Source: a virus. Taken from it: a DNA stretch of 59,735 bases. Where the stretch lies: positions 1 to 59,735 of the IMG/VR virus record IMGVR_UViG_3300008012_000002; one strand, given 5' to 3'. Shown in pieces: positions 4,122 through 57,469 of the stretch (its first letter is position 1; the number at the start of each line of letters is the position of its first letter). Made by a program: the position numbers and the translations under genes. Below the pieces are notes generated by a model, which worked only from the letters and a program-made list of their open reading frames with translations, was not told the DNA's origin and did not search any database.

Positions 4122-4292
4122 ATGAAAGACAAAGGATTAGGCGACACTATCGCCAGAGCAACAAAAGCAACTGGAATTAACGCGCTTGTCAAGGCCGTCA
4201 CAAAAGACTGTGGCTGTAAGAAGAGACAAGAGAAATTGAATAACATGTTCCCTTATGGAAGGACTAATCAGAAAAATCGTAATAGGCCGTGA
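4122..4292 (+). CDS. Small conserved phage protein with a DCGCKKRQEKLN motif
   Basis: A 56-residue protein. The ATG at 4122 is chosen because residues from MKDKGLGDTI onward look like the conserved protein, while the longer upstream extension overlaps the previous gene. The core is an amphipathic helix followed by DCGCKKRQEKLNNMFPY. I recall this motif from small proteins in many Bacteroidota and other phages, always next to a gene like the one at 4255. The two Cys could bind metal. Function unknown. Confidence 0.72.
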   Translation: MKDKGLGDTIARATKATGINALVKAVTKDCGCKKRQEKLNNMFPYGRTNQKNRNRP

Positions 4293-10666: not shown

Positions 10667-13117
10667 ATGTACAACAATAAACTTAAGAATTCTACTGGCT
10701 TTCCAGACCCTCTAGCAAGCAGAGGAGAGAAGGAGAGTGAGGAGTATGGCCTGAGATATGCAAAGGCCATCGAAGCTCAGTGGGGTAGTGTGGAGCAAGA
10801 CACATCTCTTCTTAGGCAGAGGTCTAGGACCTTTGAAAAGAATAGGGCGTATGCCAACGGAACCCAAGATACTGGTATCTATAGGCAGCTTCTGACCAGT
10901 CTCGACCCAAACAACGGTGACGGGACCATGCTCAACCTGGACTTCACGCCAGTGCCCATCCTACCAAAGTTCGTGCGCATCGTGGAGAACAAGATCATGT
11001 CGGGTAATCCATACCCAAACCTTGAGGCGGTTGATCCGCTTTCATCTTCCGAGAAAGACAGGGAGAGAAGAAAGGTTGAGATGATCATCAAAAAAAAGAA
11101 ACAGCTTAAGGACATCAACTCCAAGATTGGTCTGGACATCAGTAAGGCTGAGAAGCTACCAGAAACCCTTGAGGAGGCGGAGATCTTTATTGAAAACAAC
11201 GTAAAGTCTTCTGGGGAGATTGCGGCTCAACTTGCAACTCAGCTAACCCTGAAGTGGAATGACTTCCACGACTCTGTTTACAGGAGGTGTGTTCACGATA
11301 TAACTACGTTGGGCATGGCTGTGGTAAAGAGAACAAATGATCCCAACTACGGAATTAAGACTGACTACGTAGATCCCATTAAGTTTGTTCACAGCTACAC
11401 TGAAGACCCCAACTTTAACGACTTAGTTTACGCTGGACATATTAGACAGATCCCCATTTATGAACTTAAGCGTATCGCTGGAGATCAGTTCACCGAAGAG
11501 GAATACAAGAAGATTGCTCAAAAGGCAGCGTCTAAGTACAACTACAATGTCGGTAAGCTCAACGAAACGTTTTACGACAGGAAGAGAAATAAAACCAGGT
11601 TCGGTTATGACGAGTATATGATCGACATCATGGACTTTGAGTTCAAGGTTGTCGAGACAATGTACTTCGAGGAGAAGCCTAGCCAGTACGGAAACGTTGG
11701 CTTCTACCAGAGAAAAGGACCAAGCAAGTCTGTGTACAACAAGTCTATCAGTGAGATTGACAATGAGGTTGTTTACGGGGGTAGCTACATCCTTGGATGC
11801 GAAATGATGTTCGATTACGGACTGAAGACCAACGTGCCAAAGAATATGCACGACCTGTCTCGTGCCTGCCTTTCTTACTCAGTAGCAGCTACAAACTTGG
11901 AGAACATGATTCCCAAGTCCATGGTTAACAGCTGCATTGGGTTTGCAGACCAACTTCAGCTTACTCACCTTAAGATCCAGCAAGCCATCTCAAAGGCAAA
12001 GCCCGACGGCATTATCATTGATATCGAGGGACTGGAGAATGTACAGCTCGGTAAGGGGGGAGAACTACAGCCCCTTGAACTGCACGACATCTACGAGCAG
12101 ACTGGTGTGTTCTACTACAGAAGTAAGAACCCTGACGGAGGTTTCCAGAACCCGCCAATCAGAGAGATTGGAAATGCAGTAAGAAACATCAACGAGTTTA
12201 TTGGCATCTACAACCACTACCTGAGACTTATCCGTGACGCAACGGGAATCAATGAAGTGATGGATGCGACGTCACCAAACAGCAATGACTTGGTGGGTGT
12301 GCGCAATCAGGCCTTGGCTGCTGCAAACAACGCTATTGGAGATATCACTAATTCATCTACAATGTTGTTTAAGAAGGTGTGCTCCGATATCGTCAAGTGC
12401 GTTCAGATCATCCCAAGAGATTCCGTTCTGTTTAGATCCTACTCTAACGCGATCGGAAGCGATAACATGGATATGATCTCTACGTTCGAGAAGCTGTCTC
12501 TGTACAACTTCGGGGTGATGGTCGTTAAGGAGATGGAAGAAAGCGAGAGACAGTACCTGGAACAAAACATCCAAGTATCACTCGCTCAGAAGGAACTCGA
12601 CATCGAAGACGCAATCGCCATTAGACAGCTTAAGGACTTAAGTCAAGCTGAAAGATTGCTGGTCGTTAGACGCAAGAAGCGGGTAGCAATGAACCAGCAG
12701 ATTGCTATGCAAAACTCTCAACAGCAAGCTCAGATTCAGCAGCAGTCAGCAATGGCGGCATCACAAGCTAGACAGCAGGAGCTGCAGATGCAGACTCAGC
12801 TCAAGCTCCAGGAGATGCAAGCTAAGATGCAGATGGATATGGAGATGGAAAGAGCTAAGCATGAGATGCGCAAGGAGATCGAAATGATCAAGGCCCAGGC
12901 TACGCTCGGATTCAGAACAGAAGATCAGGAGTTCAAAGAGAAGCTTGAGGTTCTCAAAGAAGACAGAAAGGACGACCGTGTGAAGAAGCAGGCTGTCCAA
13001 CAAAGCAAGCTCATCTCACAAAGGGATGGAGTAAGAGGAGAGCTCCAGTCAGAGGACGAAGGACTCGCTGGAGAGGTACAACAAATCGTAAACCAAATCA
13101 CTGATGGCGAAGGTTAA
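10667..13117 (+). CDS. Portal protein
   Basis: An 816-residue protein, within the size range of large crAss-like portals. The N-terminal 330 residues contain the wing/clip-like alternation with a Lys-rich coiled stretch near residue 145. The central part has Asn/Asp/Tyr-rich strands and a helix-rich stem region (FIGIYNHYLRLIRDATGINE). The C-terminal 130 residues form a very long Gln/Met/Lys-rich coiled coil, like the barrel or tunnel extension of podovirus portals. Position after TerL and before the capsid cassette supports the call. It forms the dodecameric gate for DNA. Confidence 0.85.
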   Translation: MYNNKLKNSTGFPDPLASRGEKESEEYGLRYAKAIEAQWGSVEQDTSLLRQRSRTFEKNRAYANGTQDTGIYRQLLTSLDPNNGDGTMLNLDFTPVPILPKFVRIVENKIMSGNPYPNLEAVDPLSSSEKDRERRKVEMIIKKKKQLKDINSKIGLDISKAEKLPETLEEAEIFIENNVKSSGEIAAQLATQLTLKWNDFHDSVYRRCVHDITTLGMAVVKRTNDPNYGIKTDYVDPIKFVHSYTEDPNFNDLVYAGHIRQIPIYELKRIAGDQFTEEEYKKIAQKAASKYNYNVGKLNETFYDRKRNKTRFGYDEYMIDIMDFEFKVVETMYFEEKPSQYGNVGFYQRKGPSKSVYNKSISEIDNEVVYGGSYILGCEMMFDYGLKTNVPKNMHDLSRACLSYSVAATNLENMIPKSMVNSCIGFADQLQLTHLKIQQAISKAKPDGIIIDIEGLENVQLGKGGELQPLELHDIYEQTGVFYYRSKNPDGGFQNPPIREIGNAVRNINEFIGIYNHYLRLIRDATGINEVMDATSPNSNDLVGVRNQALAAANNAIGDITNSSTMLFKKVCSDIVKCVQIIPRDSVLFRSYSNAIGSDNMDMISTFEKLSLYNFGVMVVKEMEESERQYLEQNIQVSLAQKELDIEDAIAIRQLKDLSQAERLLVVRRKKRVAMNQQIAMQNSQQQAQIQQQSAMAASQARQQELQMQTQLKLQEMQAKMQMDMEMERAKHEMRKEIEMIKAQATLGFRTEDQEFKEKLEVLKEDRKDDRVKKQAVQQSKLISQRDGVRGELQSEDEGLAGEVQQIVNQITDGEG

Positions 13118-55122: not shown

Positions 55123-55323
55123 TCATTTTCTTTTTGTTGTTTCGATTCCCCACCATTCTACTTCTTCATCGTGGATGCGGAAGCTGTGTGTTTCTTGCAG
55201 GGCGTCATTCCATACCTCGTCCAACCACACGCCGTGGTCGTCAGGTGCTCCCTGCACATAGGAAGCAGGGAAGCCTTGTTCTTGCAGTGCTTTGACTGCA
55301 CGTTCGCATTTGTCTTGTGTCAT
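55123..55323 (-). CDS. Small early protein (66 aa)
   Basis: From ATG 55323, overlapping the previous stop (ATGA). It is helical at first (CERAVKALQEQGFPASYVQG), then acidic/aromatic (DDHGVWLDEVWNDALQETHS, EEVEWWGIETTKRK). No family recognised. Confidence 0.7.
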   Translation of the reverse strand: MTQDKCERAVKALQEQGFPASYVQGAPDDHGVWLDEVWNDALQETHSFRIHDEEVEWWGIETTKRK

Positions 55324-55499
55324 TTGCTCAAGTTGAATGCAGTTTTACGAACAGCCTCGACCTTCTTCAAGGTCCACCCAGGAGGTGTCATCATCCGTGC
55401 TTGGATGAGTGCTGATGTGCTGTCATTGGATGCGAACTCGCGGTCTCGCCAATCGTCTCGGTCTTTGCCGAAGTAGTATACCATGCGGTAAATGTTCAT
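55320..55499 (-). CDS. Small early protein, RMVYY-DRDDW family (59 aa)
   Basis: From ATG 55499 with an A/T-rich leader (GAAATTTCAAACTTCATTCAC region) to TGA 55320. N-terminus MNIYRMVYYFGKDRDDWRDR closely matches RMVYYRGYDRDDWD in the protein at 56076. A second half with WTLKKVEAVRKTAFNL mirrors CVKSVKAHFQL there. The two are paralogues in the same operon. Function unknown. It is the first gene after the HHR/tRNA-like segment. Confidence 0.7.
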   Translation of the reverse strand: MNIYRMVYYFGKDRDDWRDREFASNDSTSALIQARMMTPPGWTLKKVEAVRKTAFNLSK

Positions 55500-55537: not shown

Positions 55538-55608
55538 TAGATGTGGCGGGATTCGAACCCGCACCTCCACCTTTCAGTGGCGTGCTATCCTGTTACACTA
55601 TCACACCT
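55538..55608 (-). ncRNA. tRNA-like element with a shortened anticodon arm
   Basis: 71 nt on the minus strand. The acceptor is AGGTGTG/CACATCT (7 bp, one G.U) with discriminator A. The D arm is GTG...CAC with a GG in its loop. The T arm is perfect, GCGGG-TTCGAAT-CCCGC. The anticodon arm is CCAC-TGAAAG-GTGG, 14 nt instead of 17, so no 7-nt loop exists; CCACT-GAAA-GGTGG with a GNRA loop is an alternative. All else is tRNA-like. A standard tRNA finder may call it a pseudo- or Phe(GAA)-like tRNA. It lies 34 nt after a hammerhead ribozyme. Confidence 0.62.
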
Positions 55609-55642
55609 TGCGGGCTATGCCCCTCAAAGCTACGTTCGCTTT

Positions 55643-55692
55643 GACACAGACGCCTCTCGGCGTTTCGTCCATTGAGGACTCATCAGTGTGTC
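55643..55692 (-). ncRNA. Type I hammerhead ribozyme, copy 1
   Basis: All core positions are present in order on the minus strand. Stem I GACACA (92-87) pairs with TGTGTC (48-43). The core CTGATGA is at 86-80. Stem II GTCC-tcaat-GGAC is at 79-67, and GAAA at 66-63. Stem III ACGCC-GAGA-GGCGT has a GNRA loop. C at 55649 is the cleavage-site H17, giving cleavage between 55649 and 55648. Stem I carries the open ends, so it is type I. It lies 6 nt after hairpin copy 2 and upstream of the tRNA-like element. Confidence 0.92.
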
Positions 55693-55757: not shown

Positions 55758-55979
55758 TCAGTCGTCAGTCGACCACCGCTTCAGCATTCGCATCACATGG
55801 AACACCGTCGTAGCGTCAGCGTCAGGTGTGTTTGCCACGATTGATGCCATGCCCTTGACGTCATCAGGGATGAGCCGAGCGTAGCGGTTCAGGTCAGACA
55901 GGTACTTCCCGTTGTGGAAGTCGTTGAGGTAGAGGACGGCACGTCCTACGGGTTGGGAGAAAAAGTTGTCCTTAATCAT
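55758..55979 (-). CDS. Small early protein (73 aa)
   Basis: From ATG 55979 (ATGATTAA overlap with the tiny membrane protein) to TGA 55758. It contains GRAVLYLNDFHNGKYLSDLN, then IPDDVKGMASIVANTPDADA, and ends with a basic helix (FHVMRMLKRWSTDD). No family recognised. The structured RNA element follows its stop directly. Confidence 0.7.
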   Translation of the reverse strand: MIKDNFFSQPVGRAVLYLNDFHNGKYLSDLNRYARLIPDDVKGMASIVANTPDADATTVFHVMRMLKRWSTDD

Positions 55980-56076: not shown

Positions 56077-56309
56077 TACTTGTTGAGTTGGAAGTGGGCT
56101 TTCACGGACTTGACACAATGCCCATCAGGGCAGAGGTCAAGCGCTCGTTGCTTCGCATGGTCGAGAGACCACGCCTTGAACACGATGGCGTCCCAATCGT
56201 CGCGGTCGTAGCCACGATAGTACACCATCCTGAACTCCATTGAGGGGCAGGATTTCGGGAGCCAATCGCTCATCGTGCCCCGCTTGGGGTAGCGTTCCCA
56301 AATGTTCAT
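56076..56309 (-). CDS. Small early protein, RMVYY-DRDDW family (77 aa)
   Basis: From ATG 56309 (ATGA overlap with the previous stop). The core FRMVYYRGYDRDDWDAIVFK is shared with the protein at 55320. It is followed by a helix AWSLDHAKQRALDLCPDGHC and KSVKAHFQLNK. An internal Met at residue 26 (MEFRMVYY) could be an alternative start. It is a duplicated early gene family; function unknown. Confidence 0.7.
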   Translation of the reverse strand: MNIWERYPKRGTMSDWLPKSCPSMEFRMVYYRGYDRDDWDAIVFKAWSLDHAKQRALDLCPDGHCVKSVKAHFQLNK

Positions 56310-56467
56310 GACAAGTCGACGATTTCTTGTGCGACCATCATCTGCTCGTTACATGACAGGCTTGCGAACTCCTCGGAGTTGAAGTAGGCGTCAGCCCCGA
56401 ACACTTGGTACATATCGACCATAGCTTGCAATTTGGCGATTCTCGCCTCAACATTTGTAGTTTTCAT
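56306..56467 (-). CDS. Tiny early protein (53 aa)
   Basis: From ATG 56467 to TGA 56306. Helical at first (MKTTNVEARIAKLQAMVDMY), then YFNSEEFASLSCNEQMMVA. Its 26-nt leader (UGUAUCAAACUUCAAAUUCA and on) is exactly the RNA that would begin at the cleavage site of hammerhead 2, so its mRNA 5' end may be set by the ribozyme. No family recognised. Confidence 0.65.
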   Translation of the reverse strand: MKTTNVEARIAKLQAMVDMYQVFGADAYFNSEEFASLSCNEQMMVAQEIVDLS

Positions 56468-56546: not shown

Positions 56547-56750
56547 TCAGTATGGGGGCTTGTCAGGTTTGGGTGAGAGAGCAGACTCCATGGCCTTGGA
56601 CAGGAGGTACTCCTCGAGTTCTTCGTCGAGGTGGTGCTTGAGGATGTAATCCTCGGCTTCGGGGTCGCTACCTAACACCCTGTAGACGTCTACACTTGTC
56701 ATGTAGCCTGATTGGATGACGCAATCGATGATGTCTGAAACGTTTGACAT
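56547..56750 (-). CDS. Small acidic early protein (67 aa)
   Basis: From ATG 56750, 31 nt after hairpin copy 3, with leader GAAATTCAAACTTCAAGCC. Helical and acidic: VSDIIDCVIQSGYMTSVDVY, RVLGSDPEAEDYILKHHLDE, then a Pro/Lys tail KPDKPPY. No family recognised. It is bracketed by hairpin 3 and hammerhead 2, so its mRNA may be defined at both ends by RNA structure. Confidence 0.7.
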   Translation of the reverse strand: MSNVSDIIDCVIQSGYMTSVDVYRVLGSDPEAEDYILKHHLDEELEEYLLSKAMESALSPKPDKPPY

Positions 56751-57437: not shown

Positions 57438-57469
57438 CAAATCTACGGCGGCACTTTCCTTCTCACAAA
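57438..57469 (-). promoter_or_regulatory. Early promoter with -33 TTTG and -7 TAGATTTG
   Basis: On the minus strand TTTG (57469-57466), a 20-nt spacer and TAGATTTG (57445-57438) match both elements and the usual spacing of Bacteroidota housekeeping promoters. It is the most complete promoter in the genome and drives the minus arm. Confidence 0.85.

Follow-up and report, generated by a model that had tools for sequence, protein, structure and literature searches.

The minus strand of a viral DNA stretch of 59,735 nucleotides (IMG/VR record IMGVR_UViG_3300008012_000002, positions 1 to 59,735; hereafter the window) encodes two hammerhead ribozymes of type I, both lying between the genes of a minus-strand operon of small early genes. 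The one on which we focus, HHR1, is confirmed by sequence comparison as a real, well-conserved type I hammerhead, for which self-cleavage 3' of H17, leaving a 2',3'-cyclic phosphate and a 5'-OH, is predicted; together with the two hairpins and the tRNA-like RNA (TLS-C) that follow it, it is a conserved unit. The second, HHR2, first surfaced as a repeat of HHR1; where the two diverge, in stems I and III, the changes are paired.

55692-55643, minus strand: HHR1, a hammerhead ribozyme of type I, at 71.8 bits (E 4.1e-16) under a covariance model not trained on it
56539-56488, minus strand: HHR2, second type I hammerhead ribozyme (72.2 bits, E 3.3e-16)

In both, three helices surround the core, with stem I open-ended and stems II and III closed by loops, and the invariant core is exact (C3 U4 G5 A6 N7 G8 A9 / G12 A13 A14 A15.1 / U16.1 H17). 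On the minus strand, HHR1 reads GACACA CTGATGA GTCC TCAAT GGAC GAAA CGCC GAGA GGCG TC^TGTGTC, with a 6-bp stem I (55692-55687 with 55648-55643), the core CTGATGA at 55686-55680, a 4-bp stem II (GTCC/GGAC) and a stem III of 4 bp plus the A15.1-U16.1 pair (CGCC-GAGA-GGCG), capped by the GNRA-type loop GAGA. C17 is position 55649 and the predicted cut falls between 55649 and 55648, exactly as proposed, together with the full core, the three stems and the capped stem III, in the original prediction, which was made from the sequence alone; on all of this the sequence, a strict structural descriptor and a covariance model agree. HHR2 (GGTACA CTGACGA GTCC TCAAT GGAC GAAA CACCC TTCG GGGTG TC^TGTATC) would be cut between 56494 and 56493, 26 nt ahead of the ATG at 56467.

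The strict descriptor finds 2 matches in the window, as against 0.01 per shuffled genome, and HHR1 is therefore not a chance match. The covariance model, R1, was built from an alignment of 50 viral hammerheads, none of them taken from the window, and returns exactly two matches there, 56540-56486 (E 3.3e-16) and 55693-55641 (E 4.1e-16). The Rfam type I model Hammerhead_1 (RF00163), named as a check in the original prediction, aligns end to end with HHR1, at 24.9 bits; with scores of 24.9 and 22.8 bits, both window hammerheads stay below its gathering threshold of 34, which restricts the Rfam label and not the ribozyme class. Likewise, the RAGATH-1 hammerhead model (RF03152) aligns with HHR1 over its whole length at 26.0 bits (threshold 56.3), so that HHR1 shares class and fold with the hammerheads of both families while scoring under both thresholds. 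At curated thresholds, Rfam yields 2 tRNA-model matches only in the window, and none for an HDV-like fold; used alone, it would therefore miss both hammerheads.

In a collection of viral contigs, the hammerhead core combined with the GTCC/GGAC stem II was found in at least 119 stretches. Among 109 viral matches picked on core and stem II only, stems I and III are both complete in 93, compared to 1.1% after shuffling of the downstream sequence and 12% after an exchange of stem I strands between loci; this is the unbiased test, as the members of our alignment of viral hammerheads (A3) were picked on pairing and its cells are thus fully paired (100%) by construction. Within A3, 13 of the 14 pairs change on both sides. 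Compensatory changes are found in all three stems across viruses, and every position of stem I shows several pair types, with AT, TA, CG and GC all represented. Stem I is exactly 6 bp long in 134 of 154 viral hammerheads, and in these an A flanks its 5' side (129/134) and its 3' side (126/134); loop II of the subfamily is TNANT, and this combination of an A-flanked 6-bp stem I with a TNANT loop II suggests that a distal tertiary contact between the stem I region and loop II may be conserved. In most members, stem III is nothing more than a short hairpin.

The exact subfamily pattern has no match in 84,980 bacterial and archaeal genomes, and a generic hammerhead core pattern has 18 matches in cellular genomes, mostly metagenome-assembled genomes (MAGs). 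A MAG contig binned as Aliivibrio (L176, JAAGZR010000219.1), with nine model matches in 5.8 kb between small genes, is probably a phage contig. Copy number varies widely, from a single hammerhead in many contigs to 7 on one contig and 14 on one strand of another (L075, in G010, 39.8 kb); in L024, from about position 4219, a second hammerhead-like core starts right after the first, forming a tandem pair. R1 finds no hammerhead in MW202828, phi38:1 or Maribacter phage Panino.

The placement of these elements is strict. Over 176 distinct viral hammerheads on 95 loci, the median distance from the stop codon to the hammerhead is 3 nt (controls 243 nt) and that from the cut to the next ATG is 35 nt (controls 253 nt), and none of them lies inside a long same-strand open reading frame (ORF).

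What follows HHR1 is a conserved, structured RNA:

55624..55644, minus strand: P1, hairpin of the HHR1-linked RNA (TCAAAGC GAACGTA GCTTTGA)
55612..55622, minus strand: P2, hairpin GGGC ATA GCCC, its stem invariant in 7 sequences
55608-55539, minus strand: TLS-C, tRNA-like RNA (Rfam tRNA model 38.8 bits, threshold 29)

The tRNA-like element anticipated 34 nt past the hammerhead is thus there, and above the Rfam threshold: its acceptor starts at 55608, 34 nt past stem I and 40 nt past the HHR1 cut. TLS-C has a 7-bp acceptor (AGGTGTG/CACATCT; 7 bp by folding and in all seven sequences), a D arm and a T arm (GCGGG TTCGAAT CCCGC), and CCA is not encoded. With tRNAs it shares the 7-bp acceptor and the 5-bp T arm with a TTCRANT loop; the 7-nt anticodon loop is missing, the anticodon stem being capped by a GAAA loop in the window, by a TAT triloop in L086, L158 and L170, and by a 4-nt loop in L063 and L127. 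ARAGORN labels it 'tRNA-???', and decoding by TLS-C appears unlikely because it has no anticodon.

The hammerhead, P1, the GGGC-GCCC hairpin and TLS-C occur together in four other distinct contigs, L086, L158, L170 and L014 (L169 shows the same stretch as L158). The L014 copy (about 10989-11146) carries a ~100-nt insert in stem III of the hammerhead; the TLS-C downstream of it has another acceptor sequence, AGCCGCA/TGCGGCT, in which 7/7 pairs are kept. In L063 and L127, the TLS-C RNA starts with the same TGTGTC after another tRNA-like RNA, not a hammerhead, and the P1 stem is swapped for TCGTGAG/CTCACGA. The 5' end that the ribozyme would make therefore coincides with the start of the conserved RNA. 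Over the seven sequences, 95.8% of the cells are paired and 11 of 32 pairs are changed on both sides; none of 500 shuffles pairs as well, and sliding the partner strand destroys the pairing. The stretch GAGGGGC[AG]TAGCCCGCAA is nearly invariant while the helices covary, and the genes flanking the module vary among phages, except for a 59-aa DRDDW gene in the window and L158. A match to the TLS-C pattern in L128 was dismissed as chance, with no tRNA-like fold around it.

The two hammerheads are set within an operon that holds further structured elements, of which HHR2, three copies of a long hairpin and two more tRNA-like RNAs (TLS-A and TLS-B) go beyond the original prediction:

57438..57469, minus strand: weak match to a Bacteroidota-type promoter (TTTG N20 TAGATTTG), immediately ahead of the operon's first gene
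56836-56778, minus strand: long intercistronic hairpin, copy A
56547..56750, minus strand: 67-aa gene upstream of HHR2
56306..56467, minus strand: 53-aa gene; a cut at HHR2 would place the start of its mRNA 26 nt upstream
55758..55979, minus strand: 73-aa gene upstream of HHR1
55753-55699, minus strand: copy B of the long intercistronic hairpin, imperfect and lying directly before HHR1
55320..55499, minus strand: 59-aa gene of the YYFGKDRDDW family, downstream of HHR1 and TLS-C
54208-54145, minus strand: TLS-A, tRNA-like RNA (acceptor AAGGGAG/CTCCCTT)
54064-53937, minus strand: TLS-B, tRNA-like RNA of 128 nt in which the D and anticodon arms are enlarged
53933-53875, minus strand: long intercistronic hairpin, copy C

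Four gaps between operon genes are structured, holding 1) the hairpin 56836-56778, 2) HHR2, 3) a hairpin, HHR1 and a tRNA-like RNA, and 4) two tRNA-like RNAs and a hairpin. By position and structure, the long hairpins are possible RNase III-type sites; long hairpins are also seen at like positions in L124, L125, L063 and L129, with sequences that differ among relatives. The leader CAAACTTCAA (with at most 1 mismatch) precedes 4/4 of the operon genes that follow an element, as against 1/26 others (Fisher p 2e-4, with our own gene calls). The promoter match is suggestive only, because chance alone should give one or two of this kind across the window (about 1.6 by our own estimate); the 11 kb of operon that follow hold no further one.

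The small early proteins match nothing from Pfam or PHROGs. For the 73-aa gene, annotated phages yielded no match, and its copies in L124 and L125, 65-69% identical, also belong to operons with hammerheads; the 59-aa DRDDW gene follows a hammerhead and TLS-C in the window and L158, and a hammerhead without a TLS in L124. A DNA search with this region found no match in annotated phages. The best terminase match is an uncultured podovirus, followed by Flavobacterium and Cellulophaga phages at 40-48%, and the assignment of the window to a Bacteroidota phage, already part of the original prediction, is plausible on these grounds.

TLS-A is fixed in its acceptor, D arm and T arm and hypervariable in its anticodon arm: among 27 distinct versions, this arm is missing in L160 and L161 and up to roughly 80 nt long in others, for an RNA length of 49-130 nt. 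TLS-B covaries, with 14 of 47 pairs changed on both sides; it is also found in L027, L063 and L129-L136, where the stretch ACCGAGGGCTTATGGCAACGA is invariant, having served as the search pattern. Neither has a match in Rfam, and weak matches of the TLS-A/B region to the tRNA-Met of a Gordonia phage, the only DNA matches obtained, were judged to reflect T-arm similarity. Viruses are known to use tRNA mimics, such as the 3' tRNA-like structures of plant viruses and the TMERs of gammaherpesviruses; these put a tRNA shape to non-decoding use, as the TLS elements probably do, in different viruses and positions (sequences were compared via Rfam only). Just upstream of TLS-A, a strong GC hairpin (54249-54214, minus strand) followed by ACCTTTTT could serve as a terminator or attenuator before the tRNA-like array. 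L086 (2478-2403, minus strand) and L136 (13251-13326) hold one more tRNA-like sequence (CCGCGAGTATCCCC...), whose acceptor and T arm are good and which ARAGORN does not call.

Cultured phages carry a related element. A homologous hammerhead region is present in 68 records of Flavobacterium elemo phages, which infect Flavobacterium sp. BAL314:

16043-16103 of L167 (NC_055853.1), minus strand: elemo hammerhead (other isolates, L189-L194)

Seven examples were compared. Four of them (elemoA_1-5B, elemoB and two elemoC isolates) have GGTT/AACC as stem II, elemoA_2-5C has GACT/AGTC, and elemoD and elemoF have a mismatched GACT/AACC; the paired forms score 51-54 bits and the mismatched ones 41.5 with the model. 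The antisense ORF annotated over the ribozyme in most elemo records is taken here as spurious.

The structures, their conservation, their intercistronic placement and their co-occurrence are thereby established by sequence. From them we infer cleavage, co-transcription of the operon, involvement of RNase P and RNase III, and an effect on gene expression. We consider it probable that the two hammerheads cut a long minus-strand early transcript between cistrons into gene-sized mRNAs, probably during transcription. As in any type I hammerhead, the downstream product would take along only the 6-nt 3' strand of stem I, so that the upstream mRNA would end in the folded stems II and III and carry a 2',3'-cyclic phosphate; its downstream counterpart would begin with a 5'-OH and a short A-rich leader up to the next ATG. 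At HHR1, the downstream product would start exactly at the conserved RNA (TGTGTC, P1, P2 and TLS-C), and TLS-C would most likely be recognised by host tRNA-end enzymes (RNase P, 3' tRNA nucleases), adding cuts before the leader of the 55499 gene. The arrangement foreseen in the original prediction, in which the cut parts the upstream small-gene mRNA from two hairpins, a tRNA-like RNA and this gene, holds. Hammerheads, long hairpins and tRNA-like RNAs would then act as interchangeable punctuation marks. Early mRNA of T7-type phages is cut by RNase III, and mitochondrial transcripts are punctuated by tRNAs; as proposed for the window, a polycistronic transcript is cut at structured intercistronic elements. 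There, the cutting is done by proteins or RNase P, whereas in the window a predicted self-cutting RNA is mixed with hairpins and tRNA-like RNAs.

Several observations weigh against such processing. In minimum-energy folding of the isolated 258-nt gap, stem I competes with the TLS acceptor, its pair probability being 0.12-0.29 compared to 0.77-0.99 for HHR1 alone; the activity of HHR1 would therefore depend on folding before TLS-C is transcribed, and the competition counts less if folding follows transcription. Some operon genes follow no element, so that cutting cannot be general. ElemoD and elemoF persist with a mismatched stem II, which suggests that cleavage may be dispensable there. Finally, the leader and promoter statistics use gene calls made in the present analysis.

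As an alternative, the main role of HHR1 may be to create the 5' end of a small RNA that acts in trans, composed of TGTGTC, two hairpins and an anticodon-less tRNA mimic, with the separation of genes as a by-product; such an RNA could act as a tRNA decoy or inhibitor, for instance against a tRNA-binding host enzyme or a tRNA-targeting defence. We hold this as a tentative possibility. It would explain why the conserved segment starts exactly at the HHR1 cut and keeps TGTGTC in L063 and L127, where TLS-C follows a tRNA-like RNA and not a hammerhead, and it fits the near-invariance of GAGGGGC[AG]TAGCCCGCAA amid covarying helices, the varying flanking genes, and a tRNA-like fold retained without its anticodon. 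However, TLS-C precedes a leader and a gene like the other elements do, no such RNA is found at HHR2 or at most viral hammerheads, and the variable anticodon arms of TLS-A speak against one specific ligand at that arm. Were this so, and we regard it as conceivable rather than expected, the unit would represent a novel phage small-RNA family, with a hammerhead devoted to cutting its 5' end and with tRNA-recognising host or defence machinery as its target in trans, within a wider set of non-decoding TLS-A, TLS-B and TLS-C elements between early genes.

The tandem arrangement of HHR1 and HHR2 on the same strand would also allow the 845-nt segment between them to be excised and circularised by ligation of its 5'-OH to the 2',3'-cyclic phosphate, and an RtcB ligase is indeed encoded by phage phi38:1. 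But no RtcB was found in the window contig or in the five hammerhead-bearing IMG/VR relatives searched, many contigs have only one hammerhead, and circular and spliced products were sought and not found for the prophage hammerheads (Perreault et al., 2011; PMC3088659), which makes this route very unlikely. We consider it just as improbable that HHR1 is a regulated ribozyme, in which a ligand or protein at stem III or the TLS switches cutting and hence the 55499 gene: the ~100-nt stem III insert of L014 and the alternative pairing of the TLS acceptor with stem I could be read in this way, but the insert occurs in one phage only, that same phage has a changed sequence (AGCCGCA) in the acceptor strand competing with stem I, and stem III is short and plain in most members. 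The idea that HHR1 is a chance or dead hammerhead beside a tRNA pseudogene, to which the sub-threshold Rfam scores and the lost anticodon loop might lead, is refuted as to structure by the E-value of 4e-16 with an independent model and by the compensatory changes seen in TLS-C and, across viruses, in each of the three hammerhead stems; we give it hardly any credence.

Clustered type I, II and III hammerheads flanking prophage genes were described in 2011, with mRNA processing as their proposed role and with cleavage shown for some of them in vitro and in E. coli (Perreault et al., 2011; PMC3088659). They have in common with the window the core, the presence of several copies per element, the intergenic location and the proposal that transcripts are cut to gene length; unlike them, the hammerheads reported here form a narrow subfamily with stop-to-start placement and a conserved tRNA-like partner, on carrier contigs that look like non-integrated phages. 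Theta ribozymes, which are HDV-like, adjoin the tRNAs of gut phages and are proposed to trim tRNA 3' trailers (PMC10879173). Both systems combine a self-cleaving ribozyme with a tRNA-shaped RNA in phages of Bacteroidota and others, but theta ribozymes lie 3' of a tRNA, whereas in the window a hammerhead lies 5' of a non-decoding tRNA-like RNA. A 2017 review considers the role of prokaryotic hammerheads open and notes their link to phages (PMC6155905). A literature search that left most subscription journals outside turned up no description of a hammerhead placed ahead of a non-decoding tRNA-like RNA, and none of the TLS families or the hammerhead of the elemo phages. The novelty claimed in the original prediction for a hammerhead in this position thus stands in part: the tRNA-like partner and the strict punctuation pattern are new, whereas clustered phage hammerheads and the mRNA-processing idea have been known since 2011. 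As far as checked in Rfam and the literature, the hammerhead and tRNA-like unit, TLS-A and TLS-B are undescribed RNA families.

A tight, phage-enriched hammerhead subfamily that sits between stop and start codons, with up to 14 copies per contig, makes mRNA punctuation the leading explanation for these ribozymes. The elemo A-D and F phages, which carry compensated and mismatched hammerheads and share one host, offer a natural experiment on the role of phage hammerheads that needs no engineering.
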